This document shows positions 25,064 through 45,302 of a stretch of DNA of 45,475 nt, in pieces. How positions within the stretch are numbered: the first letter of the stretch is position 1; every line of letters starts with the position of its first letter. The stretch covers positions 1 to 45,475 of the forward strand of contig VGHJ01000020.1 in assembly GCA_016868295.1 (NCBI GenBank), read 5' to 3'. Source of the DNA: Betaproteobacteria bacterium (GTDB lineage: Bacteria; Pseudomonadota; Gammaproteobacteria; Burkholderiales; Rhodocyclaceae). Position numbers and translations under genes: made by a program. The notes under the pieces are model-generated. The model saw nothing but the letters and a program-made list of their open reading frames with translations. It ran no database searches and was not told the DNA's origin.

Positions 25064-25091
25064 AAAAAAGGCGGCCACCAGGCCGCCTTTT
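25064..25091 (-). terminator. Rho-independent terminator of the paaGIJK operon
   Basis: On the minus strand the stem GGCGGCC-TGGT-GGCCGCC is followed by a run of six T. The flanking AAAA/TTTT extends the stem to 11 pairs. It lies 16 bases after the paaK stop and before the histidine kinase gene, so it separates the two minus-strand units. Confidence 0.9.
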
Positions 25092-25106
25092 GTCGCGTGC
25101 TGACGA

Positions 25107-26420: not shown

Positions 26421-26456
26421 GGTGGTTTCCTCCTTTGATGCTCTCCCGTACTTTTT

Positions 26457-27662
<1,206 letters not shown>

Positions 27663-27663
27663 T

Positions 27664-28110: not shown

Positions 28111-28118
28111 GGCTGGGG

Positions 28119-28901: not shown

Positions 28902-28958
28902 TCGATGATCCCGAATGCGATACGTTTATTTCACTGTTTGCGGATAGGTTGGTATCGT

Positions 28959-28987
28959 TTTACATCTTGGTGGTCATGCTACATAAT
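28959..28987 (+). promoter_or_regulatory. Sigma-70-type promoter of paaY
   Basis: TTTACA (28959-28964), a 17-base spacer and CATAAT (28982-28987), each five of six to consensus. Transcription would start near 28994, 40 bases before the paaY ATG. An inverted pair CGATAC (28919-28924) and GTATCG (28952-28957) stands just upstream and might bind a regulator shared with paaG. I see no convincing -35/-10 for paaG. Confidence 0.65.
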
Positions 28988-29034
28988 TCAGCACAAGGAG
29001 ACAACCTGCAACATTTTGCCTGAGGGGGTGGCGC

Positions 29035-29673
29035 ATGGTAAAAGTTTATTCCATCGAGGGTGTCACGCCCGTCGTGCATCCGTCCTCCTATGTACACCCG
29101 TCGGCAGTCATTATCGGGGACGTGATGGTCGGGCCGGACTGCTATATCGGTCCGAATGCCTGCCTGCGCGGCGATTTTGGACGTATTCTCATCGAACGCG
29201 GCGTAAACGTGCAGGACTGCTGCATCGTTCATGGTTTTCCCGAACGCGATACGGTTGTCGAGGAGAACGGTCATATCGGACATGGCGCCGTGCTGCATTG
29301 CTGTCGTATCGGCCGCAACGCCCTTGTCGGCATGAACGCGGTGGTGATGGACAAGGCGGAAGTGGGCGAATCGGCGATTGTGGCAGCCATGGCCTTCGTC
29401 AAGGCGGGGACCGTGGTGCCGCCGCGCACTCTGGCAGCGGGCATTCCGGCAAAGGCGATCAGGGCGCTGACCGAACAGGAAATCGCCTGGAAGAGCGAAG
29501 GCACGGCACTCTATCGGGACCTGGCGAAGCGGTCCCTCGCCACCATGATCGAAACCGCAGCGCTCACGGAGGTGGAAGCGGATCGCAAGCGCATCGTCCT
29601 GCCCCAGATCAAGCCCTTGATCGAGGCCAAGGCCGAGTGGGCCGAAGCCGCGGGCGATCTGCCCGAACAATAG
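29035..29673 (+). CDS. paaY: PaaY, hexapeptide-repeat (gamma carbonic anhydrase-like) thioesterase
   Basis: Left-handed beta-helix protein, 212 residues. PaaY acts as a thioesterase that removes inhibitory 2-hydroxycyclohepta-1,4,6-triene-1-formyl-CoA in the phenylacetate pathway. Seen: a run of hexapeptide repeats (VHPSAVIIGDVMVGPDCYIG), metal-site residues in QDCCIVHGFPERD and IGHGAVLHCCRIG, and MNAVVMDKAEVGESAIVAAM. The C-terminal helix (ALYRDLAKRSLATMIET) is typical of PaaY rather than of generic YrdA-type carbonic anhydrases. GAGGGGG lies 8 bases upstream of the ATG. It is divergent from paaG and has its own sigma-70-like promoter. Confidence 0.9.
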   Translation: MVKVYSIEGVTPVVHPSSYVHPSAVIIGDVMVGPDCYIGPNACLRGDFGRILIERGVNVQDCCIVHGFPERDTVVEENGHIGHGAVLHCCRIGRNALVGMNAVVMDKAEVGESAIVAAMAFVKAGTVVPPRTLAAGIPAKAIRALTEQEIAWKSEGTALYRDLAKRSLATMIETAALTEVEADRKRIVLPQIKPLIEAKAEWAEAAGDLPEQ

Positions 29674-29845: not shown

Positions 29846-31012
<1,167 letters not shown>

Positions 31013-31032
31013 GGAAGAGGAAGGAATACAGC

Positions 31033-31920
31033 ATGAGCATCCTGATCAACAAGGATACCCGCGTCGTCACGCAGGGCATCACCGGCAAGACCGGCCAGTT
31101 CCACACCAAGATGAGCAAGGAGTACGCCAACGGCGCGAACTGCTACGTCGCCGGCGTGAACCCGAAGAAGGCCGGCGAATCCTACGAGGGCATTCCCATC
31201 TTCGCCTCGGTGAAGGAGGCGAAGAAACAGACGGGCGTCAATACTTCCGTCATCTACGTGCCGCCCCCCTTCGCCGCCACGGCGATCTGGGAAGCGGTCG
31301 AGGCCGAACTCGACCTGGTCATCTGCATCACCGAGGGCATCCCGGTGCGCGACATGGTCGAGGTGAAGGACAAGATGCGCAAGGCCGGCTCGAAGACCGT
31401 CCTGTGCGGCCCGAACTGCCCCGGCATCATCACGCCGGAAGAGATCAAGATCGGCATCATGCCCGGCCACATCCACATGAAGGGCCGCATCGGCGTGGTG
31501 TCGCGCTCCGGCACCCTGACCTACGAGGCGGTGGGCCAGCTCTCCGACCTCAAGCTCGGCCAGTCGACGGCCGTGGGCATCGGCGGCGACCCGGTGAACG
31601 GCCTCAAGCACAAGGACGTGCTGGAACTGTTCATGAACGACCCCGACACCGATGCCGTCATCATGATCGGCGAGATCGGCGGCTCCGACGAGGAAGCCGC
31701 GGCCGAGTGGTACGCCAGGGAGTGCAAGAACAAGAAGCCGGTGGTCGGCTTCATCGCCGGGGTCACGGCGCCACCCGGCAAGCGCATGGGCCACGCCGGT
31801 GCCATCATCTCGGGCGGCAAGGGTACGGCGCAGGAGAAACTGGCGGTGATGGAAGCCTGCGGCATCCGGACGACCAAAAACCCGGCCGAGATGGGCAAGC
31901 TGCTCAAATCCGTTCTCTAG
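31033..31920 (+). CDS. sucD: Succinyl-CoA ligase (ADP-forming) alpha subunit
   Basis: CoA-binding and phosphohistidine-carrying subunit, 295 residues (E. coli 289). Seen: N-terminus [20 protein letters not shown], CoA site [53 protein letters not shown], and the phospho-His in [20 protein letters not shown]. The start ATG follows GAGGAAGGAA. The open frame upstream is only a shadow of sucC. No clear terminator follows; the next 280 bases are described with the promoter at 32010. Confidence 0.97.
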
Positions 31921-32200: not shown

Positions 32201-34780
32201 GTGTCCAAAACGTTCTGGAAAACCGACTGGTTCATTGGCGTCGTCGTGAGCCTCGTGATGCTCTTCGCGGGCGGCAGCGATCTGCTGCAGAGCCTGGAGC
32301 GCAAGGCCTACGATCTCGGCGTCGGCGCGGTTTCGCGTACGCCCCGCGACAAGATCGCGGTCATCGCCATCGACAAGCAGAGCATCGACAACATCGGCCG
32401 CTGGCCCTGGTCGCGCGAGGTACACGCCAGGATGATCGACGGCTTGACCGCCGCCAAGGCCAAGGTGATCGCGTCCACGGTGTTTTTCTCCGAGCCCCAG
32501 ATCGATCCCGGGCTCGCCTACATCAACAAGCTGATCGAGCTCTATGGCGAGGCCGGCGGCACGTCGTTGGCCGGCGCACCCGAAATCCTGGCGGCGCAGC
32601 CTCCCCCGCTTGGACAATTCGCGCCCGTGCTGGCGGAGGCGGAGCTGAGGCTCAATTCCGACCGGCGCATGGGTGAATCCGTCGACAAGGCGGGCAATGT
32701 CGTGCTGCCCATGCTCTTCCGTCTCGGCGAGCCGCGCGGCCGGCCGGACAATCCCTTGCCGGAATACATCCGCAAGAACGGCATCACCCAGATCGAGAAA
32801 GGTGAGGACGTGCCGCTGCTGACTTCCGACGTGGAAGCGTCGGTGGTGGAGTCTCTCGGGCAGGGTGCGGCCGCCATAGGCCACCTCAATGTAAACCCCG
32901 ATGTCGACGGCGGCATTCGCACCGAGCCGCTGGTGCTGGCCCACTTCAACGAAATCTATCCGGCGTTCTCGCTCATGGTGGCCGCCCGCAGCCTCAACTT
33001 GGGCGTGGCCGACATCAAGGTCAAGCTCGGCGAAGCCGTGAGGCTGGGCAGCCTGAAGATCGGCACCGATCCGGTCATGCAGATGAACACGTTCTTCTAC
33101 AAGGACAAGGACGGCAAGCCGGCCTTTCAGGCCGATTCGTTCTTCGACGTGACGAGCGGCAAGATCCCGCTCGACAAGTATCGAGACAAGATCGTCCTGA
33201 TCGGTCCGACGGCGGCCGGCATCGGCAGCATCTTCGTCACGCCGGTGTCGCCGGCCATGCCGGCGGTGCTGATGCAGGCGCATACCGTGTCGAGCATCCT
33301 GCAGGAGCATTTCTTCGTCGTGCCGACCTGGGGCTGGATGATCGAGCGGCTGACCTTCCTGCTGGTGGCCGCCTACCTCATCGCGCTGCTGCCGCGCCTG
33401 AAGGCGGGCATGGGTGCCGGGGTGACAGTGGGCCTGCTGGTGCTGCTGGTGGCCGCGCATTTCGTGCTCATGACGACCCAGCTGATGTGGCTGCAACTGA
33501 TGGTGCCGGCGACACTGCTGCTGGTGGGCCACGCCCTGCTGACGACCAAGCGCTTCCTCGTCACCGAGCGGGGCAAGGAGAAGTCGGAGGCCGAGTCGGC
33601 CGAATCGAACCGCATGCTCGGCCTCGCTTTCCAGGGTCAGGGCCAGCTCGACATCGCCTTCGACAAGTTCCGCAAGTGCCCGATGGACGCGGCGCTGATG
33701 GAGAACCTCTACAACCTGGCGCTGGACTTCGAGCGCAAGCGCCAGTTCAACAAGGCCGAGTCGGTGTTTCGCTACATGGCCGACTTCAACCCGAAATTCC
33801 GCGACCTGGAAACCCGCCTGAACCGCGCCAAGGCCATGTCCGAAACGGTGATGCTGGGCGGCGGAAGATCGACAGCGCATGGCACCATGATCATCGAGGG
33901 CGGCCAGGTGGAAAAGCCCATGCTCGGCCGCTACCAGGTCGAGAAGGAACTCGGCAAGGGCGCCATGGGCGTGGTTTACCTCGGCCGCGACCCGAAGATC
34001 AACCGCGTTGTCGCCATCAAGACCATGGCGCTGTCGCAGGAGTTCGAGGAGGACGAGCTGAAGGACGTCAAGGAGCGCTTCTTCCGCGAGGCGGAGACGG
34101 CCGGGCGCCTCAACCACCCGAACATCGTGACCATCTTCGACGCCGGCGAGGAGCACGACCTGGCCTACATCGCCATGGAGTTCCTCAAGGGCAAGGATCT
34201 CGTGCCCTACACCAAGGTCGGCAACCTGATGCCACTGCCGAAGGCGATGGACGTCGTCGCGCGCGTGGCCGACGCGCTGTCCTATGCGCACCAGAACAAC
34301 GTCGTGCATCGCGACATCAAGCCGGCCAACATCATGTACGAGCCGGAATCCGATGCGGTGAAGGTGACCGACTTCGGCATCGCCCGCATCACGGATTCCT
34401 CGAAGACCAAGACCGGCATGGTGCTGGGCACGCCCAGCTACATGTCCCCCGAGCAGCTGGCCGGCAAGAAGATCGACGGCCGTTCCGACCTTTTCTCGCT
34501 CGGCGTGACCCTGTTCCAGATGGCCTGCGGCAAACTGCCCTTCGAGGGCGATTCGATGGCCCAACTGATGTTCAAGATCGCCAACGAGCAGCACCCGTCC
34601 ATCCGCGAGTTCAACCCGCAGGTGCCGGAGTGCCTCGCCGCGATCATCGACAAGGCGATGGCCAAGGACAACGCCCAGCGCTACCAGACCGGCGCCGAGA
34701 TGGCGGCGGATCTGCGTGCCTGCATGGGCATGAGTACGGGCGGGGCGGCCGCCGCGCCCCAGGTTGACTTCAATCTTTGA
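32201..34780 (+). CDS. CHASE2-domain transmembrane Ser/Thr protein kinase
   Basis: Membrane receptor kinase, 859 residues. A short N-terminal membrane segment (residues 10-25) is followed by an extracytoplasmic CHASE2 sensor (about 30-385, with VIAIDKQSIDNIGRWPWSRE). Three or so membrane helices come next (about 385-445), then a cytoplasmic linker with a short TPR-like stretch (ALMENLYNLALDFERKRQFN). The kinase domain spans about 574-845: glycine loop GKGAMGVVYLG, VAIK lysine, catalytic HRDIKPANIM, DFGIAR, SYMSPEQ and RSDLFSLGVTLF. All catalytic residues are present. The start is GTG with GGGAGAGGG 11 bases upstream. It is followed 8 bases later by a PP2C phosphatase and then an FHA protein: writer, eraser and reader of the same mark. 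Confidence 0.94.
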   Translation: MSKTFWKTDWFIGVVVSLVMLFAGGSDLLQSLERKAYDLGVGAVSRTPRDKIAVIAIDKQSIDNIGRWPWSREVHARMIDGLTAAKAKVIASTVFFSEPQIDPGLAYINKLIELYGEAGGTSLAGAPEILAAQPPPLGQFAPVLAEAELRLNSDRRMGESVDKAGNVVLPMLFRLGEPRGRPDNPLPEYIRKNGITQIEKGEDVPLLTSDVEASVVESLGQGAAAIGHLNVNPDVDGGIRTEPLVLAHFNEIYPAFSLMVAARSLNLGVADIKVKLGEAVRLGSLKIGTDPVMQMNTFFYKDKDGKPAFQADSFFDVTSGKIPLDKYRDKIVLIGPTAAGIGSIFVTPVSPAMPAVLMQAHTVSSILQEHFFVVPTWGWMIERLTFLLVAAYLIALLPRLKAGMGAGVTVGLLVLLVAAHFVLMTTQLMWLQLMVPATLLLVGHALLTTKRFLVTERGKEKSEAESAESNRMLGLAFQGQGQLDIAFDKFRKCPMDAALMENLYNLALDFERKRQFNKAESVFRYMADFNPKFRDLETRLNRAKAMSETVMLGGGRSTAHGTMIIEGGQVEKPMLGRYQVEKELGKGAMGVVYLGRDPKINRVVAIKTMALSQEFEEDELKDVKERFFREAETAGRLNHPNIVTIFDAGEEHDLAYIAMEFLKGKDLVPYTKVGNLMPLPKAMDVVARVADALSYAHQNNVVHRDIKPANIMYEPESDAVKVTDFGIARITDSSKTKTGMVLGTPSYMSPEQLAGKKIDGRSDLFSLGVTLFQMACGKLPFEGDSMAQLMFKIANEQHPSIREFNPQVPECLAAIIDKAMAKDNAQRYQTGAEMAADLRACMGMSTGGAAAAPQVDFNL

Positions 34781-34788
34781 GAGGGACA

Positions 34789-35610
34789 ATGGATCTCAGC
34801 CAGGCCCTGCAGATGGTGAGCCGTTCGGACGCGGGCATGGTGCGCTCGCACAACGAGGACGCCGTCTTCACCCATGCCGCCATGGGGCTCGTCATCCTTG
34901 CCGATGGCATGGGCGGCTACAATGCGGGGGAAGTGGCGAGCGGCATGGCGACCACGCTGCTCGGCAGCGAATTGGAGAAGGCCTTCCAGAAGACCGCGCC
35001 GCACCAGATCGATGCCGCCGGCAAGCTGCACTCCCACACCGTGCTGGAAGCCGAGATCGCCCGGGCCAACACGGCCATTTACCAAGCCGCCCAGAGCCAG
35101 CCCCAGTATGCGGGCATGGGCACGACGTTGGTGATGGCGCTGTTCTACGACAACATGATGACGGTGGCCCACATCGGCGACTCCCGTCTGTATCGCCTGC
35201 GCGGCGAGGAGTTCCAGGCCATCACGCGCGACCATTCGCTGTTGCAGGAGCAGATCGACAGCGGCATGATTACGGCGGAAGAGGCGCGCCATTCGCAGAA
35301 CAAGAATCTCGTCACCCGGGCTCTGGGTGTCGATCCGACGGTCGAAGCGGAAATCCGCGATTACGATACGATGCCCGGGGACGTGTACCTGCTTTGCTCG
35401 GACGGGCTCAACGACATGGTCGAGGACGAGGAGATCGCCCTCACGCTCCAGGCGCTCTCCGCCAACCTCGACCTGGCGGCCACGCAACTGATACAGACCG
35501 CGAACGACAGCGGCGGGCGGGACAATGTGTCTGTAGTGCTCGTGCGCATTGCGCGCGAATATCCGGCGGCGCGCAGCTGGTGGGCGCGGCTGCTGCAATG
35601 GTTCAAGTGA
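34789..35610 (+). CDS. PP2C-family protein serine/threonine phosphatase
   Basis: Metal-dependent phosphatase expected to reverse the kinase encoded just upstream. 273 residues, a soluble Stp/PrpC-type enzyme. The metal-binding motifs are intact: RSHNEDAVF, VILADGMGGYNAGE, GTTLVMALF, AHIGDSRLYRLR, LLCSDGLNDMVEDEE and GGRDNVSVVLV. The ATG at 34789 has GAGAGGGA immediately upstream, starting at the kinase stop; a TTG at 34777 is less likely. The C-terminal WWARLLQWFK is hydrophobic and aromatic and could peripherally attach the protein to the membrane. Confidence 0.95.
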   Translation: MDLSQALQMVSRSDAGMVRSHNEDAVFTHAAMGLVILADGMGGYNAGEVASGMATTLLGSELEKAFQKTAPHQIDAAGKLHSHTVLEAEIARANTAIYQAAQSQPQYAGMGTTLVMALFYDNMMTVAHIGDSRLYRLRGEEFQAITRDHSLLQEQIDSGMITAEEARHSQNKNLVTRALGVDPTVEAEIRDYDTMPGDVYLLCSDGLNDMVEDEEIALTLQALSANLDLAATQLIQTANDSGGRDNVSVVLVRIAREYPAARSWWARLLQWFK

Positions 35611-35630
35611 ATTGACGGGAAGGACGCAAC

Positions 35631-36380
35631 ATGTCTGCTAAGTTGATCCTCAGCATGGACGGTCTGGTGCTCAAGGAGATTCCGCTCACCAAGGAGCGGA
35701 CCAGCATCGGCCGCAAGCCGCACAACGACATCCAGATCGACAATCTCGCCATCAGCGGCGAGCACTCGGTGATCGTGACGATCCTGAACGATTCGTTCCT
35801 CGAGGACCTGAACAGCACCAACGGCACGTACGTCAACGGCCAGCCGATCAAGAAGCACTTTCTGCAGAACAACGACGTCGTCGAACTGGGCAAGTACAAG
35901 CTCAAGTACCTTAACGAGACGCCGACCCAGACTACAGCGGCCGATTTCGAGAAGACCATGGTGCTGAGGCCCGATTTGATGAAAAAGACGGCAGAGCAGA
36001 CTGCGGCCAAGGCGGTTTCGCCGAGCGACACGCAGGTCGGCATGAAGGCCCTCGACACCCAAGCCGGAATGGCCAAGCCGGCTGCCGCCGCGCCTGCGCC
36101 TGCCGCCGCGCCGCCGGTGATGGGTGCGATCCAGGTGTTGACCGGCGCCAACGCCGGCAAGGAACTGGATCTGACCAAGAACCTGACTACGCTGGGCAAG
36201 CCCGGCGTGCAGGTGGCAGTCATCACCCGCCGGCCGCACGGCTACTTCATCACCCACGTCGAGGGTGCCAATTTTCCGGTGGTCAATGGCGCCACGCTGG
36301 ACGCGCATCCCCGCGAATTGAAGGATCACGACGTCATCGAACTGGTCGGCGTGAAGATGGAGTTCTTCATCAAGGCCTGA
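35631..36380 (+). CDS. FHA-domain protein with two FHA-like domains
   Basis: Phosphothreonine-reading adaptor, 249 residues. The N-terminal FHA domain is canonical (TSIGRKPHNDIQIDN, ISGEHSVI, DLNSTNGTYVNG, LQNNDVVELGKYKLKYL). An Ala/Pro linker (about residues 145-165) leads to a second, degenerate FHA-like domain (IQVLTGANAGKELDLTKNL, then NGATLDAHPRELKDHDVIEL) that lacks the SxxH and NG binding residues of the first. Threonines between the domains (NETPTQTTAADFEKTMVL) are possible targets of the upstream kinase, as in GarA-type proteins; this is inference. It lies 20 bases after the phosphatase gene. Confidence 0.92.
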   Translation: MSAKLILSMDGLVLKEIPLTKERTSIGRKPHNDIQIDNLAISGEHSVIVTILNDSFLEDLNSTNGTYVNGQPIKKHFLQNNDVVELGKYKLKYLNETPTQTTAADFEKTMVLRPDLMKKTAEQTAAKAVSPSDTQVGMKALDTQAGMAKPAAAAPAPAAAPPVMGAIQVLTGANAGKELDLTKNLTTLGKPGVQVAVITRRPHGYFITHVEGANFPVVNGATLDAHPRELKDHDVIELVGVKMEFFIKA

Positions 36381-36485
36381 CCGGAAGGTCGGGGTTTCCG
36401 GGGCGGCGCCCTTGCTCAGTGAAATATTTTCTGTCGCCCCGATGCGAAACTGCCTAGAATTTCCCCTCCAGGAGAGGGGATCGAT

Positions 36486-38714
36486 TTGAGGCAGCACGCC
36501 GTCAGGTATGCGCTGGGGCTGATCGTCCTGCTCGCCCTTCTCGGGCATGCCGCCCGCTTCTACCAGCTCGGCTTCATCAACAGGCTCGACGCCATCATTT
36601 ACGACACCAAGGTGCGGCTGACCATGCCGCAGAACGTCGACGACCGTGTCGTCATCCTCGATATCGACGAAAAGGCCCTGGGCGAACTCGGCCGCTGGCC
36701 GTGGGGCAGGGATCGCGTCTCCCTGCTCGTCAGGAAGCTGTTCGACCAGCATGGCATCGCCCTGCTCGGCTTCGACATCGTTTTTGCCGAGCCCGACGAC
36801 AGTTCCGGCCTGAAGGTGCTCGACCACCTGTCCAGGAACGAGCTCAAGGACAGCACCCAATTCCAGTCTGCGCTGAAGGAGTTGCGGCTGCAACTCGACA
36901 ACGACGGACGCTTTGCCGAGACGATCCGGGGGCGGCCGGTCATCCTCGGCTACTACCTGTCGGGGCACAGCGATGGCGTTTCCAGCGGCAGCCTGCCGCA
37001 GCCGGTGCTGCCGGAGGGCAGCTTTACCGGACGCAGCATCCCGTTCACCGTCTGGAACAACCATGGCGGCAACCTCGAGATGTTCCAGAAAGCCGCCCTG
37101 TCCGGCGGGCACTTCAACCCGCTGGTGGATTTCGATGGCATTTCGCGCCGCGTGCCCATGCTGGCGGAGTACAAGGGCCAGTACTACGAGGCGCTGTCGC
37201 TGGCCATGGTTCGCGCCGTGCTGGGCCAGCCCAAGGTGGCGCCCTGGTTTCCCGAGGAGCGCTGGTTTTCGAGCAAGGGCTACCAGGGTATGGAGGCCAT
37301 CGACCTGCCGACGGCGCGCGGCACGCTGCGCATCCCCGTCGACGAGAACGTCGCCGCCCTGATTCCCTACCGCGGCTACCAGGGCAGCTTCCGCTACGTA
37401 TCCATTGCCGACATCATGGCCGACCGGATCAAGCCGGGCGAGCTGAAGGGCAAGATCGGCCTCGTCGGCACCACCGCGCCCGGACTGCTCGACCTGCGCG
37501 CGACGCCGGTGGGCGAGGCCTACCCCGGGGTGGAAATCCACGCCAACCTGATCACCGGCATGCTCGACGGCACGATCAAGCTGAAGCCGACCTATGTGCT
37601 GGGCGCCGAGGTGCTGCTGCTGCTGTTTGCCGGGCTGGTGATGGTGCTGCTGCCGCTGCTCTCGCCCTTGCGCGCCACCGTGGCGACGCTGGTCGTGCTG
37701 CTGTTCGTTCTCACCGTCAACCTGTTCTTCTGGCACTACGGCAACCTGGTGCTGCCGCTCGGCTCCAGCCTGCTCATGGTGCTGGCGCTATTCGTGCTCA
37801 ACATGTCCTACGGCTATTTCGTCGAATCCCGCGCCAAGCGGCAGTTCACCGAGCTGTTCGGCCAATACGTGCCGCCCGAGCTGGTCGAGGAGATGAGCCG
37901 CAATCCCGAGTCCTACAGCATGGACGGGCGCAAGGCCGAGTTGAGCGTGCTGTTTTCGGACATTCGCGGCTTTACCAGCATTTCCGAGGGGCTGACGCCG
38001 GACGAGCTGACGCGGCTGATGAACGAATACCTGTCCGCCATGACGGACGTCGTCCGCAAGAACCGCGGCACGCTCGACAAGTACATCGGCGACGCCATCA
38101 TGGCCTTCTGGGGCGCTCCCGTGGAAGACGCCCAGCACGCGCGCCATGCCGTGATCACGGCCATGGCGATGCAGGCCGCCCTGCCGGCGCTGAACAAGGA
38201 CTTCGCCGCCAAGGGCTGGCCCGAGATCAGGATAGGGGTCGGCATCAACACGGGCGAGATGACCGTCGGCGACATGGGCTCCGCCGTGCGCAAGGCCTAT
38301 ACTGTCATGGGCGACGCGGTCAACCTGGGCTCGCGCCTGGAGGGCATCACCAAGCAGTACGCGGTCGGCATCCTGGTGGGCGAAGGCACGCGCAAGTCGA
38401 TCAAGGACATCGTCTTCCGCGAGGTGGACCGTGTCCAGGTGAAGGGCAAGGAGGAGCCGGTCGGCATCTATGAGCCCGTGGGGCTCGAGGGCGATGTCGG
38501 CAAGGCCGTGCATGAGGAACTCAAGCTGTGGAACCAGGCGCTGCGGCATTACCGCGCGCAGGAGTGGGACCAGGCCGAGGTGACGCTGTTGAACCTGACC
38601 CGCCTGGCGCCCGAGCGGGCGCTCTACGGCAAGTACATGGAGCGGGTGGCGCTTTTGCGCAAGGCGCCGCCCGAACCCGGTTGGAAGGGCGTGTGGAAAT
38701 TCGAAACCAAATAA
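36486..38714 (+). CDS. CHASE2-domain class III adenylate cyclase
   Basis: Membrane receptor cyclase, 742 residues. Order: membrane segment (about 8-25), CHASE2 sensor (about 30-365, with VVILDIDEKALGELGRWPWG), three membrane helices (about 370-440), and the cyclase domain (about 485-660). Catalytic metal Asp residues are in SVLFSDIRGFTSISEG and IGDAIMAFWGAP. The adenine-selecting Lys (LDKYIGD) and Asp (MGDAVNLGSRLEG) together with the transition-state Asn and Arg are all present, so cAMP is the expected product. A C-terminal TPR-like tail follows. The start is TTG with GGAGAGGGG upstream. It shares the CHASE2 architecture with the kinase at 32201, suggesting related signals. Confidence 0.93.
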   Translation: MRQHAVRYALGLIVLLALLGHAARFYQLGFINRLDAIIYDTKVRLTMPQNVDDRVVILDIDEKALGELGRWPWGRDRVSLLVRKLFDQHGIALLGFDIVFAEPDDSSGLKVLDHLSRNELKDSTQFQSALKELRLQLDNDGRFAETIRGRPVILGYYLSGHSDGVSSGSLPQPVLPEGSFTGRSIPFTVWNNHGGNLEMFQKAALSGGHFNPLVDFDGISRRVPMLAEYKGQYYEALSLAMVRAVLGQPKVAPWFPEERWFSSKGYQGMEAIDLPTARGTLRIPVDENVAALIPYRGYQGSFRYVSIADIMADRIKPGELKGKIGLVGTTAPGLLDLRATPVGEAYPGVEIHANLITGMLDGTIKLKPTYVLGAEVLLLLFAGLVMVLLPLLSPLRATVATLVVLLFVLTVNLFFWHYGNLVLPLGSSLLMVLALFVLNMSYGYFVESRAKRQFTELFGQYVPPELVEEMSRNPESYSMDGRKAELSVLFSDIRGFTSISEGLTPDELTRLMNEYLSAMTDVVRKNRGTLDKYIGDAIMAFWGAPVEDAQHARHAVITAMAMQAALPALNKDFAAKGWPEIRIGVGINTGEMTVGDMGSAVRKAYTVMGDAVNLGSRLEGITKQYAVGILVGEGTRKSIKDIVFREVDRVQVKGKEEPVGIYEPVGLEGDVGKAVHEELKLWNQALRHYRAQEWDQAEVTLLNLTRLAPERALYGKYMERVALLRKAPPEPGWKGVWKFETK

Positions 38715-38727
38715 CGAGAGCCGGCAT

Positions 38728-39495
38728 ATGAAGGTCAGGGTCCTCGGCTGCAGCGGCGGCATCGGCGGGCGTCACTTGCGCACGACCTCGCTGCTGGTCG
38801 ACCACGACATCCTGATCGATGCCGGCACCGGGGTGGGCGACCTGTCGCTGGCCGAACTGGCGCTGATCGACCACGTGTTCATCACCCACTCGCACCTCGA
38901 CCACATCGCCTGCCTGCCGTTCATGGTCGACACGGTCGGCGACATGCGCAACAAGCCGCTCACCGTGCATGCGACGCGGGCCACGCTGGAAATCATGCAG
39001 GCGCACATCTTCAACTGGGCCATCTGGCCGGATTTTTCGGAGATACCGAATCGCGACAAGCCCTTCATGCGCTATGAGGAGGTCGCGACGGGCAAGGCGG
39101 TGAAGATGGAAGGCCGGGAAATCACCGCCCTGCCGGCCTGCCACACCGTTCCCGCCGTCGGCTACTGGCTCGACTCCAGCGCGGGCAGCCTGGTGTTCAG
39201 CGGCGACACGACGGTTTGCGACGATTTGTGGAAGGCGGTGAACAAGATCCGCAACCTGCGCTACCTCATCATCGAGTCCGCCTTTTCCAACCGCGAGCGG
39301 CAGCTTGCCATCGCCTCCAAGCACTTGTGCCCCGACCTGCTGAAGGAGGAACTGCTCAAGCTGCAGCGCGAGGCGGAGATCTACATCACCCACCTCAAGC
39401 CCGGCCAGATCGAGCTGACCATGCAGGAGATCGAGGAGTTCATCGGCGAGTACAAGCCGCGCATGCTGCAGAACAACCAGGTGTTCGAGCTATGA
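38728..39495 (+). CDS. Class II cyclic-nucleotide phosphodiesterase (metallo-beta-lactamase fold)
   Basis: Predicted cAMP phosphodiesterase, 255 residues. The metal site H54-S-H56-L-D58-H59 (FITHSHLDHIACLP) is the signature of class II phosphodiesterases such as yeast PDE1 and Vibrio CpdP. Further ligands lie in ALPACHTVPAVGYWL, VFSGDTTVCDD and IYITHLKPGQ. There is no signal peptide, so it acts in the cytoplasm, where it would degrade the cAMP made by the cyclase encoded 13 bases upstream. The family also contains other MBL-fold hydrolases, but the neighbour makes a cyclic-nucleotide role likely. Its stop overlaps the next ATG (ATGA). Confidence 0.85.
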   Translation: MKVRVLGCSGGIGGRHLRTTSLLVDHDILIDAGTGVGDLSLAELALIDHVFITHSHLDHIACLPFMVDTVGDMRNKPLTVHATRATLEIMQAHIFNWAIWPDFSEIPNRDKPFMRYEEVATGKAVKMEGREITALPACHTVPAVGYWLDSSAGSLVFSGDTTVCDDLWKAVNKIRNLRYLIIESAFSNRERQLAIASKHLCPDLLKEELLKLQREAEIYITHLKPGQIELTMQEIEEFIGEYKPRMLQNNQVFEL

Positions 39496-40586
39496 GATCC
39501 GGCGTCATTTCAACCGACTTCCTCTCCCGGCTCGAGCCGCTCGGCGCGCTCTCGGCCGACAGCCTGCGCGAGATCTCGCGCATGTGCTACGTGGAAAGGG
39601 TGAGCCGCAATCTCGATCCGCTGCGGCTGAAGGGGCTTGCGGGGCAGGCGGTCTATCTCATCAAGGGCGAACTCAAGCTCGACTACCCCGATGCCAGTTT
39701 CGAAATCATGGTCGGCGGCACGGAGACCGCGATGCGTTCCCTGGACAAGCGCAAGCCCGCCTTTTCCGCGACCAAGGCCATCACCGACGTCGAGCTGCTG
39801 CGCATCGACGAGGAAGTGCTCGACATCATGCTGACCTGGGATCAGCTGGCCGCACCGGCGACTGCGCCGCACAAGAAAGCGACCGAAGCCGCGGATCGGA
39901 CGGACTGGCGCACCATGTCCGGCATGTTTGCGGCGGAGAACCTGACGAGCGGCATCTTCGCCAGCCTGCCGCCCGCCCACATCGAAGAGCTGTTCAGGCG
40001 CTTCCAGCGCATCAAGACGTTGCGCGGCGAGTCCATCATTCAGGAAGGCGGTGAAGGCGATTATTACTACGTGATCGAGAGCGGGCGCTGCCAGGTGAAA
40101 CGCCAGGTCGGCGGCGCCAGCGTCGAGCTGGCCGAACTGAAGGCCGGGGACGCCTTCGGCGAGGAGGCGCTGGTGGCGAACGCCAAGCGCAACGCCAGCA
40201 TCGTCATGAAGACCGATGGCGTCCTGCTCAGGCTGTCCAAGGCCGATTTCGTCGAGCTCCTGAAGGAGCCCCTCATGCACCGTCTGACGCGCGACGAAGC
40301 CGATAAAAAGGCCAGGGCCGGGGCGGTCTGGGTGGACGTGCGCTTTGCCGCCGAATACAACGCGGAAAAACTGCCCGGGGCAATCAATATTCCGCTCAAC
40401 GAGATCCGCAACCTGTTTGGCACGCTCGACAGGCAGAAGGAGTATATTGTTTATTGTCAGAGCGGGCGGCGCAGTTCGGCTGCGGCCTTTCTGCTTTCCC
40501 AGCGCGGCTACAAGGCCTATCTGCTCGAGGGCGGCCTGCGCGGCCTGACGCGCGATTCCCTACGGCTCGGGGGTGATCTGAAATGA
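39492..40586 (+). CDS. Tandem cNMP-binding domain protein fused to a rhodanese domain
   Basis: Cyclic-nucleotide sensor of 364 residues with no DNA-binding domain. The first cNMP-like domain (about 1-120) is degenerate. The second (about 150-270) is canonical: EGGEGDYYYVIESGRCQVKR and the phosphate-binding cassette AGDAFGEEALVANAKRNAS with its conserved Glu and Arg. Residues 275-360 form a rhodanese domain (WVDVRFAAEYNAEKLPGAIN) with active-site Cys322 in YIVYCQSGRRSSAA. Its function may be sulfur transfer, phosphate chemistry or redox sensing under cyclic nucleotide control. The ATG overlaps the phosphodiesterase stop, and its own stop overlaps the next ATG, so three genes are translationally coupled. 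Confidence 0.92.
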   Translation: MRSGVISTDFLSRLEPLGALSADSLREISRMCYVERVSRNLDPLRLKGLAGQAVYLIKGELKLDYPDASFEIMVGGTETAMRSLDKRKPAFSATKAITDVELLRIDEEVLDIMLTWDQLAAPATAPHKKATEAADRTDWRTMSGMFAAENLTSGIFASLPPAHIEELFRRFQRIKTLRGESIIQEGGEGDYYYVIESGRCQVKRQVGGASVELAELKAGDAFGEEALVANAKRNASIVMKTDGVLLRLSKADFVELLKEPLMHRLTRDEADKKARAGAVWVDVRFAAEYNAEKLPGAINIPLNEIRNLFGTLDRQKEYIVYCQSGRRSSAAAFLLSQRGYKAYLLEGGLRGLTRDSLRLGGDLK

Positions 40587-41059
40587 GTGCGGTGCTCGGT
40601 ACGGCGCAGGATGCGGGCGGGGCGGGCGACGTTGCCAGACGCCTGACCTTCTTCAAGAACCTGCAGACGGTCACCAACAATATCCATGCGACGGCGAACA
40701 TCGACGAGATCATGCTCGAGCTGTCGCAGGACATCTGCACGCTCTTCAACGCCGACCGCCTGACCATCTACTCGGTGAGCGAGGACAAGACCTCGATCGT
40801 CTCGAAGGTCAAGACCGGGCTGAATTCCTTCAAGGACCTGCGCCTGCCCATCGCCGACCAGAGCATCGCGGGCTTCGTCGCCCTGTCGAAGAAGCTGGCC
40901 AACATCCGCGATGTGTATGACGAGGCGGAGCTCAAGTCGCACACGCCCAGCCTGTGCTTCCTGCAGGAGGTGGACAAGCGCACCGGCTACCGCACCAAGC
41001 AGATGCTGGTGGCGCCGATCACCGACGCGCACAGCGGGGAGCTGCTCGGCGTCGTGTAG
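40583..41059 (+). CDS. GAF-domain protein (upstream part of the interrupted ATPase gene)
   Basis: If the amber codon terminates translation, a 158-residue GAF protein is made. It opens with a low-complexity stretch (residues 1-18), then a helix (LTFFKNLQTVTNNIHATANI) and an almost complete GAF sensor (FNADRLTIYSVSEDKTSIVS, then QMLVAPITDAHSGELLGVV). The last strand and helix of the fold lie beyond the stop, so the free fragment would probably be unstable. GAF domains bind small ligands, including cyclic nucleotides, which would fit the cyclase/phosphodiesterase neighbours. Confidence 0.7.
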   Translation: MSAVLGTAQDAGGAGDVARRLTFFKNLQTVTNNIHATANIDEIMLELSQDICTLFNADRLTIYSVSEDKTSIVSKVKTGLNSFKDLRLPIADQSIAGFVALSKKLANIRDVYDEAELKSHTPSLCFLQEVDKRTGYRTKQMLVAPITDAHSGELLGVV

Positions 41060-41197
41060 CTCATCAACAACAAGGCCGGCACGACCTTCACGCCGGTCGC
41101 GGAGGAGGGCGTCAAGGGCCTGTGCGAGACGCTGGCCATCGCCTTCACCCAGCGCCAGAAGCCGGCGCATGTCGTCAAGTCGAAGTACGACCACCTG

Positions 41198-42958
41198 GTG
41201 GCCGACGCGGTGCTCTCCGCCGCCGAGTTCGACCTGGCCACGCGCTCGGCGCGGCGCAAGGGGCAGGACATCGAGGAGGTCCTGCAGAGCGAGTTCCAGG
41301 TCAAGCTGGCGTCGATCGGCCAGGCGCTGGGCAAGTTCTTCGGCGTGCCCTACGAGCCCTACAAGGGCGACCGCATCAAGCCGATGGACCTGCTGAAGAA
41401 CCTCAAGCGCGACTACGTCGAGGAAAACCAGTGGCTGCCGATCGAGGAGGGCAAGGAGGGCGTGGCCATCCTGACGATGGACCCGGAGCAGGTCAAGAGC
41501 TCGCGCATCGTCAACAACGTCTTCCCCAAGAGCAAGCTCGTCTTCCGCGTCACCACCATCCAGGAATTCAAGCAGACGCTCGACCAGTTCTACGGCGCTG
41601 CGGCCGACTACGGCTCGGTCGGCGACCTGCTCTCCGGCCTCGACGAGGGCGAGGAGGGCGTCAGCGATCTCACCAGCGAGGATCTCTCCGCCGCAGCGGA
41701 CAACGAGTTGGTCAAGCTGGTCAACAAGATCATCATCGACGCCTACAACCAGGGTGCCTCCGACATCCACATCGAGCCGCGCCCGGGCAAGGACAAGACG
41801 CTCATCCGCTTCCGCAAGGACGGTTCGCTGGTCAACTACATCGAGATACCCTCGAGCTACCGCAACGCCCTGGTGGCGCGCCTGAAGATCATGTGCGACC
41901 TGGACATCTCCGAGCGCCGGAAGCCCCAGGACGGCAAGATCAAGTTCAAGAAGTTCGGCCCGATCGACATCGAGCTGCGCGTGGCGACGATTCCCTCGGC
42001 CGGCGGCGTCGAGGACGTGGTGATGCGCATCCTCGCCGCCGGCGAGCCGATCCCGCTGGAGAAGCTCGGCGTCCTGCCGAAGAACCTGGAGCGGCTGAGA
42101 TCCGTCATCGAGAAGCCCTACGGCCTGTTCTTCGTCTGCGGCCCGACCGGCTCCGGCAAGACGACCACCCTGCACTCGGTGCTGAAATACCTCAACACGA
42201 CCGACACCAAGATCTGGACGGCCGAGGACCCGGTCGAGATCACGCAGAAGGGCCTGCGCCAGGTCCAGATCAACCGCAAGGCCGGGCTGGACTTCGCCAC
42301 CATCATGCGCGCCTTCCTGCGCGCCGACCCGGACATCATCATGGTCGGCGAGATGCGCGACAAGGAGACCGTCTCCATCGGCATCGAGGCCTCGCTTACC
42401 GGCCACCTGGTGTTCGCCACCCTGCACACCAACAGCGCGCCCGAGTCGATCACCCGCCTGCTCGACATGGGCATGGACCCGTTCAACTTCGCCGATGCCC
42501 TGCTCGGCATCCTGGCGCAGCGTCTGGGCAAGCGCCTGTGCGGCGAATGCAAGGAAGCCTACACACCGAGCTCGGAGGAGATGAAGAGCCTGCTCACCGA
42601 GTACTGCGAGGAACTGCTCAACACCGCCCCCTTCAAGAAGGACGCCAAGGCCGGCTACGAATCGGTGTACAAGGAATGGGTGAAGAATTACGGCGACGAC
42701 AAGGGCCAGTTCAAGCTCTATCGCGCCAAGGGCTGCGAGAAGTGCAACGGCAGCGGCTACAAGGGCCGCGTCGGCCTGCACGAGCTGATGCTCGGCACGG
42801 ACAACGCCAAGAAGCTGATCCAGGAGCACGCCCGCGTGGCCGAGCTGGTGGCCTGCGCGCTCGAGGACGGCATGCGCACCCTCAAGCAGGACGGCATCGA
42901 GAAGGTGCTGCAGGGCATCACCGACATCAAGCAGGTCCGCGCCGTCTGCATCAAGTAA
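41198..42958 (+). CDS. PilB/GspE-type ATPase (downstream part of the interrupted gene)
   Basis: Hexameric ATPase that powers pilus extension or type II secretion. Conserved coding sequence starts right after the amber codon (41060). The first plausible restart is GTG 41198, which lacks a ribosome site and gives 586 residues. Seen: N-terminal GspE-II-like region (ASIGQALGKFFGVPYEPYKG), ASDIHIEPRPG, Walker A (GPTGSGKTTTLHSVL), Asp box (WTAEDPVEITQKGLRQVQIN), Walker B (DPDIIMVGEMRDKE), His box (TGHLVFATLHTNSAPE) and a tetracysteine zinc site (CGEC...CEKC). All motor residues are intact. An unusual insert (about 80 residues) separates the two Cys pairs. Tight linkage to a pilin gene suggests a pilus motor. 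Confidence 0.85.
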   Translation: MADAVLSAAEFDLATRSARRKGQDIEEVLQSEFQVKLASIGQALGKFFGVPYEPYKGDRIKPMDLLKNLKRDYVEENQWLPIEEGKEGVAILTMDPEQVKSSRIVNNVFPKSKLVFRVTTIQEFKQTLDQFYGAAADYGSVGDLLSGLDEGEEGVSDLTSEDLSAAADNELVKLVNKIIIDAYNQGASDIHIEPRPGKDKTLIRFRKDGSLVNYIEIPSSYRNALVARLKIMCDLDISERRKPQDGKIKFKKFGPIDIELRVATIPSAGGVEDVVMRILAAGEPIPLEKLGVLPKNLERLRSVIEKPYGLFFVCGPTGSGKTTTLHSVLKYLNTTDTKIWTAEDPVEITQKGLRQVQINRKAGLDFATIMRAFLRADPDIIMVGEMRDKETVSIGIEASLTGHLVFATLHTNSAPESITRLLDMGMDPFNFADALLGILAQRLGKRLCGECKEAYTPSSEEMKSLLTEYCEELLNTAPFKKDAKAGYESVYKEWVKNYGDDKGQFKLYRAKGCEKCNGSGYKGRVGLHELMLGTDNAKKLIQEHARVAELVACALEDGMRTLKQDGIEKVLQGITDIKQVRAVCIK

Positions 42959-42968
42959 TCCCGCCGTC

Positions 42969-44630
42969 GTGGATACCATCGAGGATCTCTTCCGCCGTTT
43001 CGAGCAGCTCAACGCCATCGGCGCCGCGCTCTCGCACGAGCGCGACATCGACAAGCTGCTGGAGAACATCCTCGTCGCCGCCAAGATCATCACCCATGCC
43101 GACGGCGGCACGCTCTACCGGGTGACCGAGGACGAGGCCAGCCTGCGCTTCGAGATCGTGCGCAACGACAGCCTGAAGATCGCCATGGGCGGCACCTCGG
43201 GCAATCCCATACCGTTCCCGCCGCTGCCCTTGCGCAACGAGCAGGGGGAGGAGAACAACTCGATGGTGGCCGCCTACGCCGCCATCCACCAGAAGACGGT
43301 CAACATCGCCGACGCCTACGAGGCGGAGGGCTTCGACTTCTCCGGCACGCGCAAGTTCGACGCGCATACCGGCTATCGCTCGCAGTCCTTCCTCACCGTG
43401 CCGATGAAGAACCACGAGAACGCGGTCATCGGCGTGCTGCAACTGATCAACTCGATCGACCCGGACACGGGCAGGGTGACGCCCTTCTCCGCCGCCGACC
43501 AGCGCCTGGCCGAGTCGCTCGCCTCGCAGGCCGCCATCGCGCTCACCAACCGCCAGCTCATCTCGCAGCTCGAGCAGCTGTTCGAGTCCTTCATCCAGCT
43601 CATCAACGTGGCGATCGACGAGAAATCGCCCTACACCGGCGGCCACTGCGAGCGCGTGCCGGTGCTCACCATGATGCTGGCCGAGGCGGTGAACGAGACC
43701 CGGAGCGGCGCGCTGGCCGACTTCAGCATGGGCGACAAGGACCGCTACGAACTGAAGATCGCCGGCCTGCTGCACGACTGCGGCAAGGTGACGACGCCGG
43801 TGCACGTGGTGGACAAGGCGACCAAGCTGCAGACCCTCTACGACCGCATCCACCTCGTCGACACGCGCTTCGAGGTGCTCAAGCGCGATGCCCAGATCGC
43901 CATGCTGAAGGCCAAGCTGGCCCTGCGCGACGCGCGCGACGCGCGCGCCGAGGCCATGATCGAGGAGGACCTGACCCGCCACCTGCGCCAGATCGAGTCG
44001 GACCGCGAGTTCCTGCGCCACGCCAACATCGGCGGCGAACTGATGACGCCGGAGGACCAGGCGCGCGTGACCAAGATCGGCAGCGGCTACCGCTGGATCG
44101 ACGTCGAGGGCAAGGCGGCCAACTTCCTCAGCGACGACGAACTGGAGAATCTCAACATTCGCGCCGGCACGCTGACGCAGAAGGAGCGCGAGACGATCAA
44201 CTACCACATCGTCGCCACCATCAAGATGCTCGAGCAACTGCCCTGGCCGAAGCACCTGAAGAACGTGCCGGAGTACGCCGGCGGCCACCACGAGCGCATG
44301 GACGGCAAGGGCTACCCGAAGGGCCTCACGCGCGAGCAGATGAGCGTGCAGGCGCGCGTCATGGGCATCGCCGACATCTTCGAGGCGCTCACCGCGCGCG
44401 ACCGCCCCTACAAGCGCGGCAAGACGCTGTCCGAATCGCTCGAGATCCTCGGCAAGTTCAAGCTGGGCGGCCACATCGATCCGGACCTGTTCGATGTCTT
44501 CGTGCGGCAGAAGGTGTATCTGAAATACGCCGAGAAATTCCTCGATCCGGAGCAGATCGACGAAGTGCGCGAGGACGGGATTCCGGGCTACGTACAGGAT
44601 ATTGCTGCGGCGCAAAAAAGTGACGCTTAG
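42969..44630 (+). CDS. GAF/HD-GYP domain protein, probable c-di-GMP phosphodiesterase
   Basis: 553 residues. The N-terminal GAF domain (about 15-195, FEQLNAIGAALSHERDIDKL, VIGVLQLINSIDPDTG) is followed by an HD-GYP domain. Seen: GGHCERVPVLTMMLAEAV, the HD pair in GLLHDCGKVTTPVHVVDKATKL, and the diagnostic HHERMDGKGYPKGLTREQMS with RVMGIADIFEALTARDRPYK. The HD and GYP parts are separated by an unusually long, charged helical insert (about residues 290-420). HD-GYP proteins hydrolyse c-di-GMP, a second messenger that controls pili and motility. The start is GTG at 42969, 10 bases after the ATPase gene, with no good ribosome site, suggesting coupling. The stop codon sits inside a perfect hairpin. 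Confidence 0.92.
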   Translation: MDTIEDLFRRFEQLNAIGAALSHERDIDKLLENILVAAKIITHADGGTLYRVTEDEASLRFEIVRNDSLKIAMGGTSGNPIPFPPLPLRNEQGEENNSMVAAYAAIHQKTVNIADAYEAEGFDFSGTRKFDAHTGYRSQSFLTVPMKNHENAVIGVLQLINSIDPDTGRVTPFSAADQRLAESLASQAAIALTNRQLISQLEQLFESFIQLINVAIDEKSPYTGGHCERVPVLTMMLAEAVNETRSGALADFSMGDKDRYELKIAGLLHDCGKVTTPVHVVDKATKLQTLYDRIHLVDTRFEVLKRDAQIAMLKAKLALRDARDARAEAMIEEDLTRHLRQIESDREFLRHANIGGELMTPEDQARVTKIGSGYRWIDVEGKAANFLSDDELENLNIRAGTLTQKERETINYHIVATIKMLEQLPWPKHLKNVPEYAGGHHERMDGKGYPKGLTREQMSVQARVMGIADIFEALTARDRPYKRGKTLSESLEILGKFKLGGHIDPDLFDVFVRQKVYLKYAEKFLDPEQIDEVREDGIPGYVQDIAAAQKSDA

Positions 44631-44636
44631 CGTCAC
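44620..44636 (-). terminator. Perfect hairpin over the HD-GYP stop codon, with T-run on the minus strand
   Basis: GTGACGC-TTA-GCGTCAC spans the last codons and TAG of the HD-GYP gene. Read on the minus strand it is followed by six T (44614-44619), a classical intrinsic terminator facing leftward. On the plus strand no T-run follows, though a second hairpin CCCGC-AGAGA-GCGGG lies at 44643-44657. It may block antisense transcription from the pilin region or fold the 3' end of the operon mRNA. Confidence 0.6.
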
Positions 44637-44716
44637 ATCCTGCCCGCAGAGAGCGGGACGGCGCCGTGCCCGGCAGGCGGACTTTTTCAAAACAAGGACT
44701 TGTTGTGGCAATAAGT

Positions 44717-44731
44717 TGGCACGGCTATTGC
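44717..44731 (+). promoter_or_regulatory. Sigma-54 promoter of the pilin gene
   Basis: TGGCACG-GCTA-TTGC is an exact match to the sigma-54 consensus. The expected start point is about 44743, giving a leader of about 60 bases before the ATG at 44802. Pilin promoters in proteobacteria are typically sigma-54 dependent under PilSR control; no PilR gene is in the window. Confidence 0.88.
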
Positions 44732-44801
44732 CTATAGCTTGGCATGAGCCGGAGCAGGCAACCATCCCGGCCATATTTTTCAACTGCAGAAGGAGAACTT
44801 C

Positions 44802-45302
44802 ATGAAGACGATTCAAAAAGGCTTCACCCTGATCGAACTGATGATCGTGGTCGCGATCATCGGCATTCTGGCCGCCGTCGCCCTGCCGGCCTACCAGGAC
44901 TATACGGTGCGCGCCCGGGTCAGCGAAGGCTTGGTTGGCGCCTCTGCCGCCAAGGTGAACGTTCAGGACGTACTGACTTCCGGCAATCCGGGTGCCGACG
45001 TACTCGGTTATAGCCTTGGCTACACCGGTCCGACCGCCACGCGAAACGTGGCGAGCATCGCGATCACGGCTGCGACAGGGGTTATCACGGTGACAACGAC
45101 GGCGGCGGCTGGCAACGGCAGGCTGGTCCTGACGCCGAATGCGCCGATCGGTACCGCGCTTCCTGTCGGCACCGCCGCTTTCACGCCGCCGGCTGATTCC
45201 GTAGCCTGGCGCTGCGCGGCTGCTGGCGCGGTCGCCTCCGGCTTTGCCGGGTTTGCGGCGGGCACGCTCCCCGCGCGCTTCGCGCCGGCGGAGTGCAAGT
45301 AA
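44802..45302 (+). CDS. pilA: Type IV major pilin (PilA-like prepilin)
   Basis: Structural subunit of type IVa pili, 166 residues. The class III signal MKTIQKG is cleaved before Phe8 ([20 protein letters not shown]), with the conserved mature Glu5 (Glu12). After the helix ([20 protein letters not shown]) comes a Gly/Ala/Thr-rich globular part. Two Cys near the C-terminus (WRC and ECK) bound the typical disulfide loop, which here is notably Ala/Gly rich. GAAGGAGAA precedes the ATG by 6 bases. It has its own sigma-54 promoter upstream and a strong terminator downstream, so it is probably a monocistronic, highly expressed gene. Confidence 0.95.

Follow-up and report, generated by a model that had tools for sequence, protein, structure and literature searches.

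Contig VGHJ01000020.1 of the Rhodocyclaceae assembly GCA_016868295.1 (Betaproteobacteria bacterium, order Burkholderiales) carries a block of nine genes, all on the + strand, in which a Ser/Thr kinase, a PP2C phosphatase and an FHA protein adjoin cyclic-nucleotide and cyclic di-GMP (c-di-GMP) signalling genes, a pilus-type ATPase and a type IV pilin. The window, that is, the whole stretch of 45,475 nucleotides analysed, is the entire contig (C20) of a 2.67 Mb genome assembled in 118 contigs and 99.45% complete. The block is a real conserved unit and not a chance row of genes: its composition, gene order and catalytic residues persist across families of the order, and its core persists beyond the order. 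It places three signalling currencies at one locus, and its FHA marker occurs in about half of the sampled order. The best explanation as a whole, to which we assign a probability of about 0.4, is a conserved envelope-sensing module with an auxiliary pilus-motor output arm. The genes and the interruption found in one of them are as follows.

32201..34780, + strand: CHASE2 receptor Ser/Thr kinase, 859 aa (Pfam: CHASE2 at 17-390, 173.5 bits; Pkinase at 578-829, 189.7 bits)
34777..35610, + strand: PP2C-type Ser/Thr phosphatase, 277 aa (NCBIfam Stp1/IreP, 253.6 bits, cut-off 230)
35631..36380, + strand: FHA protein, 249 aa (FHA domain at 24-87, a linker with the conserved motif DFEKTMVLRP, and a predicted second FHA-like domain)
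36486..38714, + strand: CHASE2 receptor class III nucleotidyl cyclase, 742 aa (CHASE2, 174.3 bits; Guanylate_cyc, PF00211, 82.3 bits, cut-off 21.9)
38728..39495, + strand: metallo-beta-lactamase-fold hydrolase, a possible cyclic-nucleotide phosphodiesterase (Lactamase_B_2, 63.5 bits; PDEase_II, 45.5 bits over part of the profile)
39492..40586, + strand: tandem cyclic-nucleotide-binding (CNB) domains and a rhodanese domain, 364 aa (Pfam cNMP_binding and Rhodanese, scanned on the longer open reading frame 39216-40586)
40583..42958, + strand: GAF-MshEN-like-T2SSE pilus/secretion ATPase, interrupted (GAF, 26.1 bits, and T2SSE, 394.7 bits, on two pieces)
40583..41059, + strand: GAF piece of the ATPase gene, with the MshEN-like and T2SSE parts following in the same frame to 42958
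41057..41059, + strand: in-frame TAG between the GAF domain and the ATPase, seen in the translation
42969..44630, + strand: GAF-HD-GYP protein, 553 aa, a probable c-di-GMP phosphodiesterase (HD_5, 140.2 bits; GAF, 50.7 bits)
44802..45302, + strand: type IV pilin, 166 aa (Pfam: Pilin, 48.6 bits; N_methyl, 37.3 bits)

The gene order is as first described, and the domains were confirmed by Pfam matches above curated cut-offs. The initial annotation had presented nine collinear genes with intact catalytic motifs and two CHASE2 receptors. Positions, strand, order, domains and both CHASE2 assignments are borne out, and catalytic or ligand residues are conserved in the enzymes and readers examined, but the reading frame of the GAF-ATPase is split by the TAG. 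The overlapping starts and stops reported within 38728-42958 are 4-nt overlaps at 39492 (CNB-rhodanese and phosphodiesterase-like genes) and 40583 (GAF-ATPase and CNB-rhodanese genes), and a further one lies at 34777 (PP2C and kinase genes). The remaining intergenic gaps measure 20, 105, 13 and 10 nt, with 171 nt from the HD-GYP gene to the pilin. A scan for promoters and terminators gave one promoter-like and seven terminator-like sites, no excess over shuffled sequences.

Conservation within the order was assessed in 133 loci, comprising 13 of 20 from a CNB-rhodanese search of 200 order genomes, 80 from an alignment scan of genome contigs with the phosphodiesterase-like (PDE-like) protein (the best 80 of at least 500 matches) and 40 from an FHA profile. 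Loci L054-L060 were omitted, as the CNB-rhodanese protein matched there alone, bar weak ATPase, cyclase or pilin matches. For the models, 47 of 51 CNB-rhodanese and 48 of 106 FHA references were used. Of the 133 loci, 114 (three duplicate pairs included) have three or more of the eight genes other than the pilin, and the order kinase-PP2C-FHA-cyclase-PDE-CNB.rhodanese-GAF.ATPase-HD.GYP is identical in all 114, which are phylogenetically non-independent. The presence of the three proteins used for recruitment was selected, while gene order and the presence of the others were not; within that limit the initial idea of a conserved module, as opposed to orthologues scattered in most relatives, holds. 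After removal of L045 and L046 as duplicates of L084 and L081, 112 loci remain (the duplicate pair L129/L198 being retained), in which the genes detected are PDE-like (109), FHA (108), PP2C (101), ATPase (99), HD-GYP (91), cyclase (87), kinase (79) and CNB-rhodanese (52); some missing genes reflect contig ends. Where the locus spans from kinase to HD-GYP (71 loci), the PDE-like gene is found in 71, the cyclase and the ATPase in 67 each, the CNB-rhodanese gene in 36 and all eight genes in 35. By record title, whole or partial blocks occur in Sulfuritalea, Azospira, Gallionella, Sideroxydans, Accumulibacter, Methyloversatilis and Parachitinimonas. Among cultured relatives the block is open in Azospira sp. 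I13 (L076) and in Parachitinimonas caeni DQS-5 (L131), in the latter of which a CNB-rhodanese gene was not detected. At E<=1e-30 the FHA profile has matches in 213 of the 399 genomes sampled from the order, this genome among them, and in 94 of 159 genera, a count of FHA proteins and not of full blocks, whose weaker matches include paralogues in other surroundings (L211, L214, L222, L223 and L226).

The two receptor genes seem to move together. Of 20 loci in which PP2C is the first gene, no kinase is present and the upstream sequence reaches 3 kb or more, 19 also have no cyclase, and in the genome of L103 the kinase and the CHASE2 cyclase stand side by side (L142), away from the rest of the block. 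Their joint departure from the locus fits a shared cue.

In the mechanism that we propose, two CHASE2 transmembrane receptors would respond to a shared envelope cue, one acting as a Ser/Thr kinase and the other making cyclic AMP (cAMP). The kinase would phosphorylate itself and the FHA protein, most likely at Thr109 within DFEKTMVLRP; the FHA domain would bind the phospho-Thr sites, PP2C would erase them, and the tandem-CNB-rhodanese protein would read cAMP. The output arm in this order would consist of an auxiliary extension ATPase of PilB type that receives input through its GAF domain, the GAF-HD-GYP protein, which would lower c-di-GMP, and the adjoining pilin gene. The FHA and cyclic-nucleotide signals would thereby set the timing of pilus extension by the GAF-ATPase. 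That the receptors share a cue, that Thr109 is a substrate, which nucleotide is made and that pili are the output are inferences, the last of them a best guess and not established. The conserved Thr109 and the gene list offer concrete and cheap tests.

The catalytic residues of the phospho-Thr trio are conserved. In the kinase, K607, D705, N710 and D724 are present in 62/62 aligned sequences (window included), and in the phosphatase D43 is present in 70/70 and D135, D209 and D249 in 71/71. The linker of the FHA protein is mostly not conserved, with T109 kept in 93% of 74 sequences, and a DFEKTMVLRP-like motif is found again in the majority of the 20 class-level loci described below. The kinases carry a juxtamembrane SETxxL-type motif in 57/60, 15/20 and 9/15 cases in three locus sets, the first figure being that for the first-set relatives. 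Both motifs have a hydrophobic residue at +3 from the Thr, a position that FHA domains read. On this conservation Thr109 is a candidate substrate of the kinase; the co-loss analysis given below lends it no support. The double FHA architecture of the initial annotation stands in part: Pfam recognises one FHA domain, but the second is a predicted beta-sandwich at an FHA-like position that is hardly covered by the fold search. A second type of phospho-Thr cluster also exists in the order, with two PP2C-FHA pairs flanking a kinase gene on the opposite strand (L211, L214, L222, L223 and L226).

In the cyclase, D492, K532, D536, T606, N613 and R617, which we take to be the metal, base-recognising and transition-state positions, are present in 73/73 sequences, and the best solved matches are adenylate cyclases, with CyaB among the nearest. 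The PDE-like protein retains H54, H56, D58, H59, H139 and D160 in 94/94 sequences, so that its HxHLDH metal motif is invariant. The class II phosphodiesterase named in the initial annotation is nevertheless a doubtful label on the profile evidence: the HxHxDH motif and a PDEase_II match above cut-off (PF02112, 45.5 bits) speak for it, but that match covers only positions 83-146 of 340, the NF041851 score is 38.5 against a cut-off of 400, and the best NCBIfam score is that of RNase Z, itself below cut-off. No locus has a cyclase without a PDE-like gene in the 112-locus set, which was largely recruited through the latter. The cNMP (cyclic nucleoside monophosphate) sensor with a rhodanese domain is confirmed by Pfam (cNMP_binding and Rhodanese), and the structural model predicts two CNB domains and a rhodanese domain, aligning with regulatory subunits of protein kinase A (PKA) and with rhodaneses. 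Its E224 and R233, presumably the Glu and Arg of the phosphate-binding cassette, are present in 53/53 sequences and C322 in 52/52. HD-GYP proteins are recognised by their HD and HHExxDGxGYP motifs, and here H269 and D270 occur in 65/65 sequences and H440, H441 and G448 in 64/64. Parts of the block also travel separately: genome G072 has the PDE-like and CNB-rhodanese genes as an isolated pair (L052:9457-11313) and an FHA and HD-GYP pair elsewhere (L205).

A number of observations weigh against the envelope-sensing module with a pilus-motor arm. Some of these concern the link between the kinase and Thr109. In the first locus set, the Thr motif is present in 59/61 loci with the kinase; among 17 loci without it, the motif is present in 8 and missing in 9 (in five of these the FHA gene is a fragment at a contig end). 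L103 and L139, which have no kinase in the locus, carry a full one at another place in their genomes. Loss of the motif in a genome where no full-length CHASE2 kinase was found is seen in L093, L096, L104, L138, L189, L191 and L194. It is kept in genomes without a full-length CHASE2 kinase in L086 and L102 of the first set and in L187, L188, L195, L201, L210, L213 and L219 of the second, and lost although the kinase is in the locus in L133, L190 and L215. Other kinase-less genomes have near-motifs (L205 and L212) or none (L221), and most genomes in this comparison encode other Hanks kinases. Co-loss of the linker Thr with the kinase was rejected as a rule, given retention in nine kinase-less genomes and loss in three kinase-bearing loci. 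The cyclic-nucleotide arm is likewise uneven, with the PDE-like gene standing without a local cyclase in 22/112 loci and the CNB-rhodanese gene detected in just 52/112. For the pilus arm, no pilin lies within 5 kb in 33/89 loci whose downstream sequence is 3 kb or longer, a pilin follows sucC and sucD in the absence of the block in 4 of 12 neighbourhoods read, and the ATPase scores under the cut-off of the GspE model (458 bits) and misses that of TfpB as well.

The pilus arm was also not found beside the core in the loci read outside the order. An FHA profile search at class level (E<=1e-50) matched 49 of 274 genomes (own and order genome G093 included), and the neighbourhoods of 20 of the 49 were read (L239-L258; 19 outside the order, and G093). 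PP2C is present in 19 of these loci, a full-length CHASE2 kinase in 15 and a CHASE2 cyclase in 12, on the strand opposite to FHA in 9; an HD-GYP gene with a CNB-rhodanese gene occurs in 2, and a PDE-like gene in 1. The GAF-ATPase was found in none of the 20, and a pilin, sought by tblastn and a prepilin-motif scan, in one, which is L258 from the order genome G093. As the opposite-strand cyclase is kept near the trio, the association of kinase, PP2C, FHA and cyclase outlives the operon; and because these genes persist in the loci read outside the order, where the GAF-ATPase and pilin were not found, the core consists of these four, the motor and pilin being a lineage-specific addition. Outside the order the core is flanked by other genes (six loci read by eye), which in some loci look like an Mla/MCE phospholipid-transport operon.

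Within the order, the condition of the arm in this genome depends on the TAG at 41057-41059. A sense codon occupies this position in 74/74 readable relatives (of 77; two duplicate pairs included), and copies free of the stop occur in close relatives, e.g. L062. The TAG may be a genuine nonsense mutation; the alternative is an error of the assembly, possible given its 118 contigs, and the output arm of this genome may accordingly be broken or only appear so. It is quite possible, if short of even odds, that the block is decaying here, with a real TAG, the pilus arm lost and the signalling core retained, which would be compatible with the best explanation for the relatives. The sense codon in all readable relatives and the frequent loss of parts among them agree with decay; all other genes of the block in this contig are open frames with motifs intact, and a consensus error would give the same picture.

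The block lies downstream of two genes that we take by eye to be sucC (29846-31012) and sucD (31033-31920; together 29846..31920, + strand), which are also upstream in many relatives. Of the 89 loci that extend 3 kb or more downstream, 52 have a pilin within 3 kb: 28/40 of those with sucCD upstream, 8/21 of those where 3.3 kb or more of upstream sequence contains no sucCD, and 16/28 of those that could not be assigned. Of 20 genomes in which sucD was sought, 12 neighbourhoods were read. In four of these (L227, L229, L231 and L236) the pilin follows sucC-sucD directly or after a single gene, with no block, and their genomes are not among the FHA matches listed; L233 (genome G007) has sucC-sucD-PP2C-FHA-pilin, which is either a minimal remnant or a precursor of the block between sucD and the pilin; and no pilin stands beside sucCD in 7 of the 12. 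The adjacency of pilin and sucCD therefore does not depend on the block, which lies, whole or as remnants, in the gap between them. In a separate arrangement, the CHASE2 kinase gene lies directly upstream of sucC in L141 and L230 (genome G022), and in G022/L141 the remaining block is elsewhere.

These arrangements bear on a rival explanation that is plausible, though the odds are against it, namely a general envelope-stress phospho-Thr/cAMP module with outputs elsewhere, for which the pilin would be a positional neighbour, the block having been inserted into, or partly lost from, a row of sucC, sucD, in some cases a TerC-like gene, and the pilin. The block-free and minimal rows, the higher frequency of a pilin in sucCD-linked (28/40) than in unlinked loci (8/21), and the other genes that adjoin the core outside the order all favour it. 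Against it, those 8 unlinked loci retain the pilin within 3 kb, although N_methyl matches occur at only two places in the 2.67 Mb genome (five matches, one here and the other four clustered on contig C47). In genome G029 the pilin still follows the block by ~290 nt (L198) with sucCD on a separate contig (L228), and a pilus-type ATPase lies within the block in 99/112 loci. The adjacency of the pilin therefore appears to be partly inherited with sucCD, and the link between block and pilin real but lineage-bound. This genome also encodes TfpB and two PilT/U proteins besides a canonical PilB and a third ATPase resembling it, so that an auxiliary motor would have a pilus machine to work with. The pilus output inferred by the initial annotation is nonetheless not established, in view of the sucCD-pilin rows without the block, the class-level counts (0/20 for the GAF-ATPase and 1/20 for the pilin) and the interrupted ATPase. 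Relatives of the CNB-rhodanese gene remote from the block were considered as further evidence for a pilus role and dropped: a pilus operon is nearby in L055 and L056 but has unrelated genes in between, and the comparable surroundings in L054 contain no pilus operon.

Another rival reading, which is very unlikely, makes the GAF-ATPase the motor of a type II secretion-like machine or a signalling ATPase and not a pilus motor. The piece after the stop scores 479 bits with the PilB model TIGR02538 (cut-off 675.65), against 837.8 for the canonical PilB of the genome; this value is close to the 458 bits of GspE and both are below cut-off, and no gene for a PilC-type platform or a secretin lies within the block. 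On the other side, the nearest solved structures are PilF/PilB, ~25 bits ahead of GspE, and a pilin gene adjoins. Catalytic positions are kept, with Walker A K367 and Walker B E431 at 99% and His-box H449 at 97% (76-77 sequences; numbering of the post-stop piece). The MshEN c-di-GMP receptor motif is a 24-residue sequence of the RLG...Q type (PMC5013675), and it is absent in 77/77 ATPase relatives by strict and relaxed patterns and in the window by the relaxed pattern. Binding of c-di-GMP through the MshEN-like domain was rejected on these grounds; as the PilB and TfpB of this genome are also without the motif, its absence is not distinctive for the GAF-ATPase, and the C38 ATPase has one relaxed copy. 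The NKFDE motif marks GAF domains that bind cyclic nucleotides (PMC4411481). An NKFDE-type stretch occurs in the GAF domain of 74/77 relatives, with N, K/R, F and E mostly kept and D varying, a count made within the family with no unrelated-GAF control, and it may be a weak lead to cyclic-nucleotide binding.

In Proteobacteria, kinase-phosphatase-FHA trios are known mainly from type VI secretion (T6SS). The control of pili is known mainly to run through c-di-GMP and through cAMP circuits of a chemotaxis-like kind. The initial annotation knew of no named system with this exact composition, and none was found described in the open-access full-text literature searched, a scope that leaves subscription papers mostly outside. 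The signalling block is apparently unnamed, a trio resembling the threonine phosphorylation pathway (TPP) that is joined by neighbourhood to a cyclase and has a pilus arm in one large lineage. It could, though this is unlikely, represent a third, undescribed type IV pilus control, in which a paired CHASE2 cue feeds phospho-Thr and cAMP signals that converge on a GAF-gated extension ATPase, the GAF domain binding the nucleotide, and the CNB-rhodanese protein, similar to PKA regulatory subunits, is a new cAMP effector tied to sulfur or redox state.

In T6SS threonine phosphorylation, Fha binds phospho-Thr of TssL, a part of the machine (PMC3953482). As in that pathway (PpkA/PppA/Fha), which works at an envelope machine, a Hanks kinase, PP2C and FHA protein are encoded together; unlike it, the block adds a CHASE2 sensor, a cyclase, a CNB reader, an HD-GYP protein and a pilus ATPase. 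No T6SS genes lie in the block, and the sole match of its proteins to T6SS models is that of the FHA protein to TagH (TIGR03354), at 42.2 bits below the cut-off of 120.25. OdhI and GarA, whose partner kinases are PknB and PknG, carry the target Thr N-terminal to the FHA domain. The block shares with them the FHA fold and the kinase-PP2C-FHA logic and differs in having Thr109 in the linker after the FHA domain (24-87), a second FHA-like domain and a pilus-like partner gene. An OdhI/GarA-like tricarboxylic acid cycle switch is most improbable. In such a switch the kinase and PP2C, next to sucCD, would turn the FHA protein on and off as an inhibitor of 2-oxoglutarate or succinyl-CoA metabolism. 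The OdhI equivalog NF041660, whose cut-off is 200, scores 57.8 bits; the Thr motif lies behind the FHA domain and not ahead of it; sucCD is missing from the stretch read in many loci; and the pilus ATPase and HD-GYP protein would have no role. The archaeal ArnA is an FHA protein of a phospho-network acting on the type IV pilus-like archaellum, in which no cyclase or CNB parts are known. Its FHA domain is among the matches of the block FHA protein; the likeness is confined to that domain, with no further family link shown.

The Pil-Chp/CyaB/Vfr system links adenylate-cyclase cAMP with pili (PMC11656802). The block resembles it in the adenylate-type cyclase near a pilus gene, with CyaB among the nearest solved cyclases, and differs in that no chemotaxis array or Vfr-type regulator is found among its proteins, where the CNB-rhodanese protein would read cAMP instead. 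TfpB is a known second extension ATPase, and the available part of the same 2024 review of PilB control mentions neither FHA nor GAF (PMC11656802). With the PilB and TfpB motors, for which MshE and FimX exemplify c-di-GMP control, the block ATPase shares conserved Walker A, Walker B and His-box motifs and PilF/PilB as nearest structures; unlike them, it has an N-terminal GAF domain and scores under the PilB, GspE and TfpB cut-offs. Three PilB paralogues are reported in a betaproteobacterium, with no such block mentioned in the available part of that paper (PMC3164672). CHASE2 domains are described on cyanobacterial kinases (PMC2877116) and in a histidine-kinase operon that is different from this block (PMC5192318).

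Upstream of sucCD, the window contains at 23166-29673 a group of genes, which by eye from their translations we take to be a ligase, an enoyl-CoA hydratase, a thioesterase and a carbonic-anhydrase-like protein; the group resembles phenylacetate or aromatic acyl-CoA metabolism.

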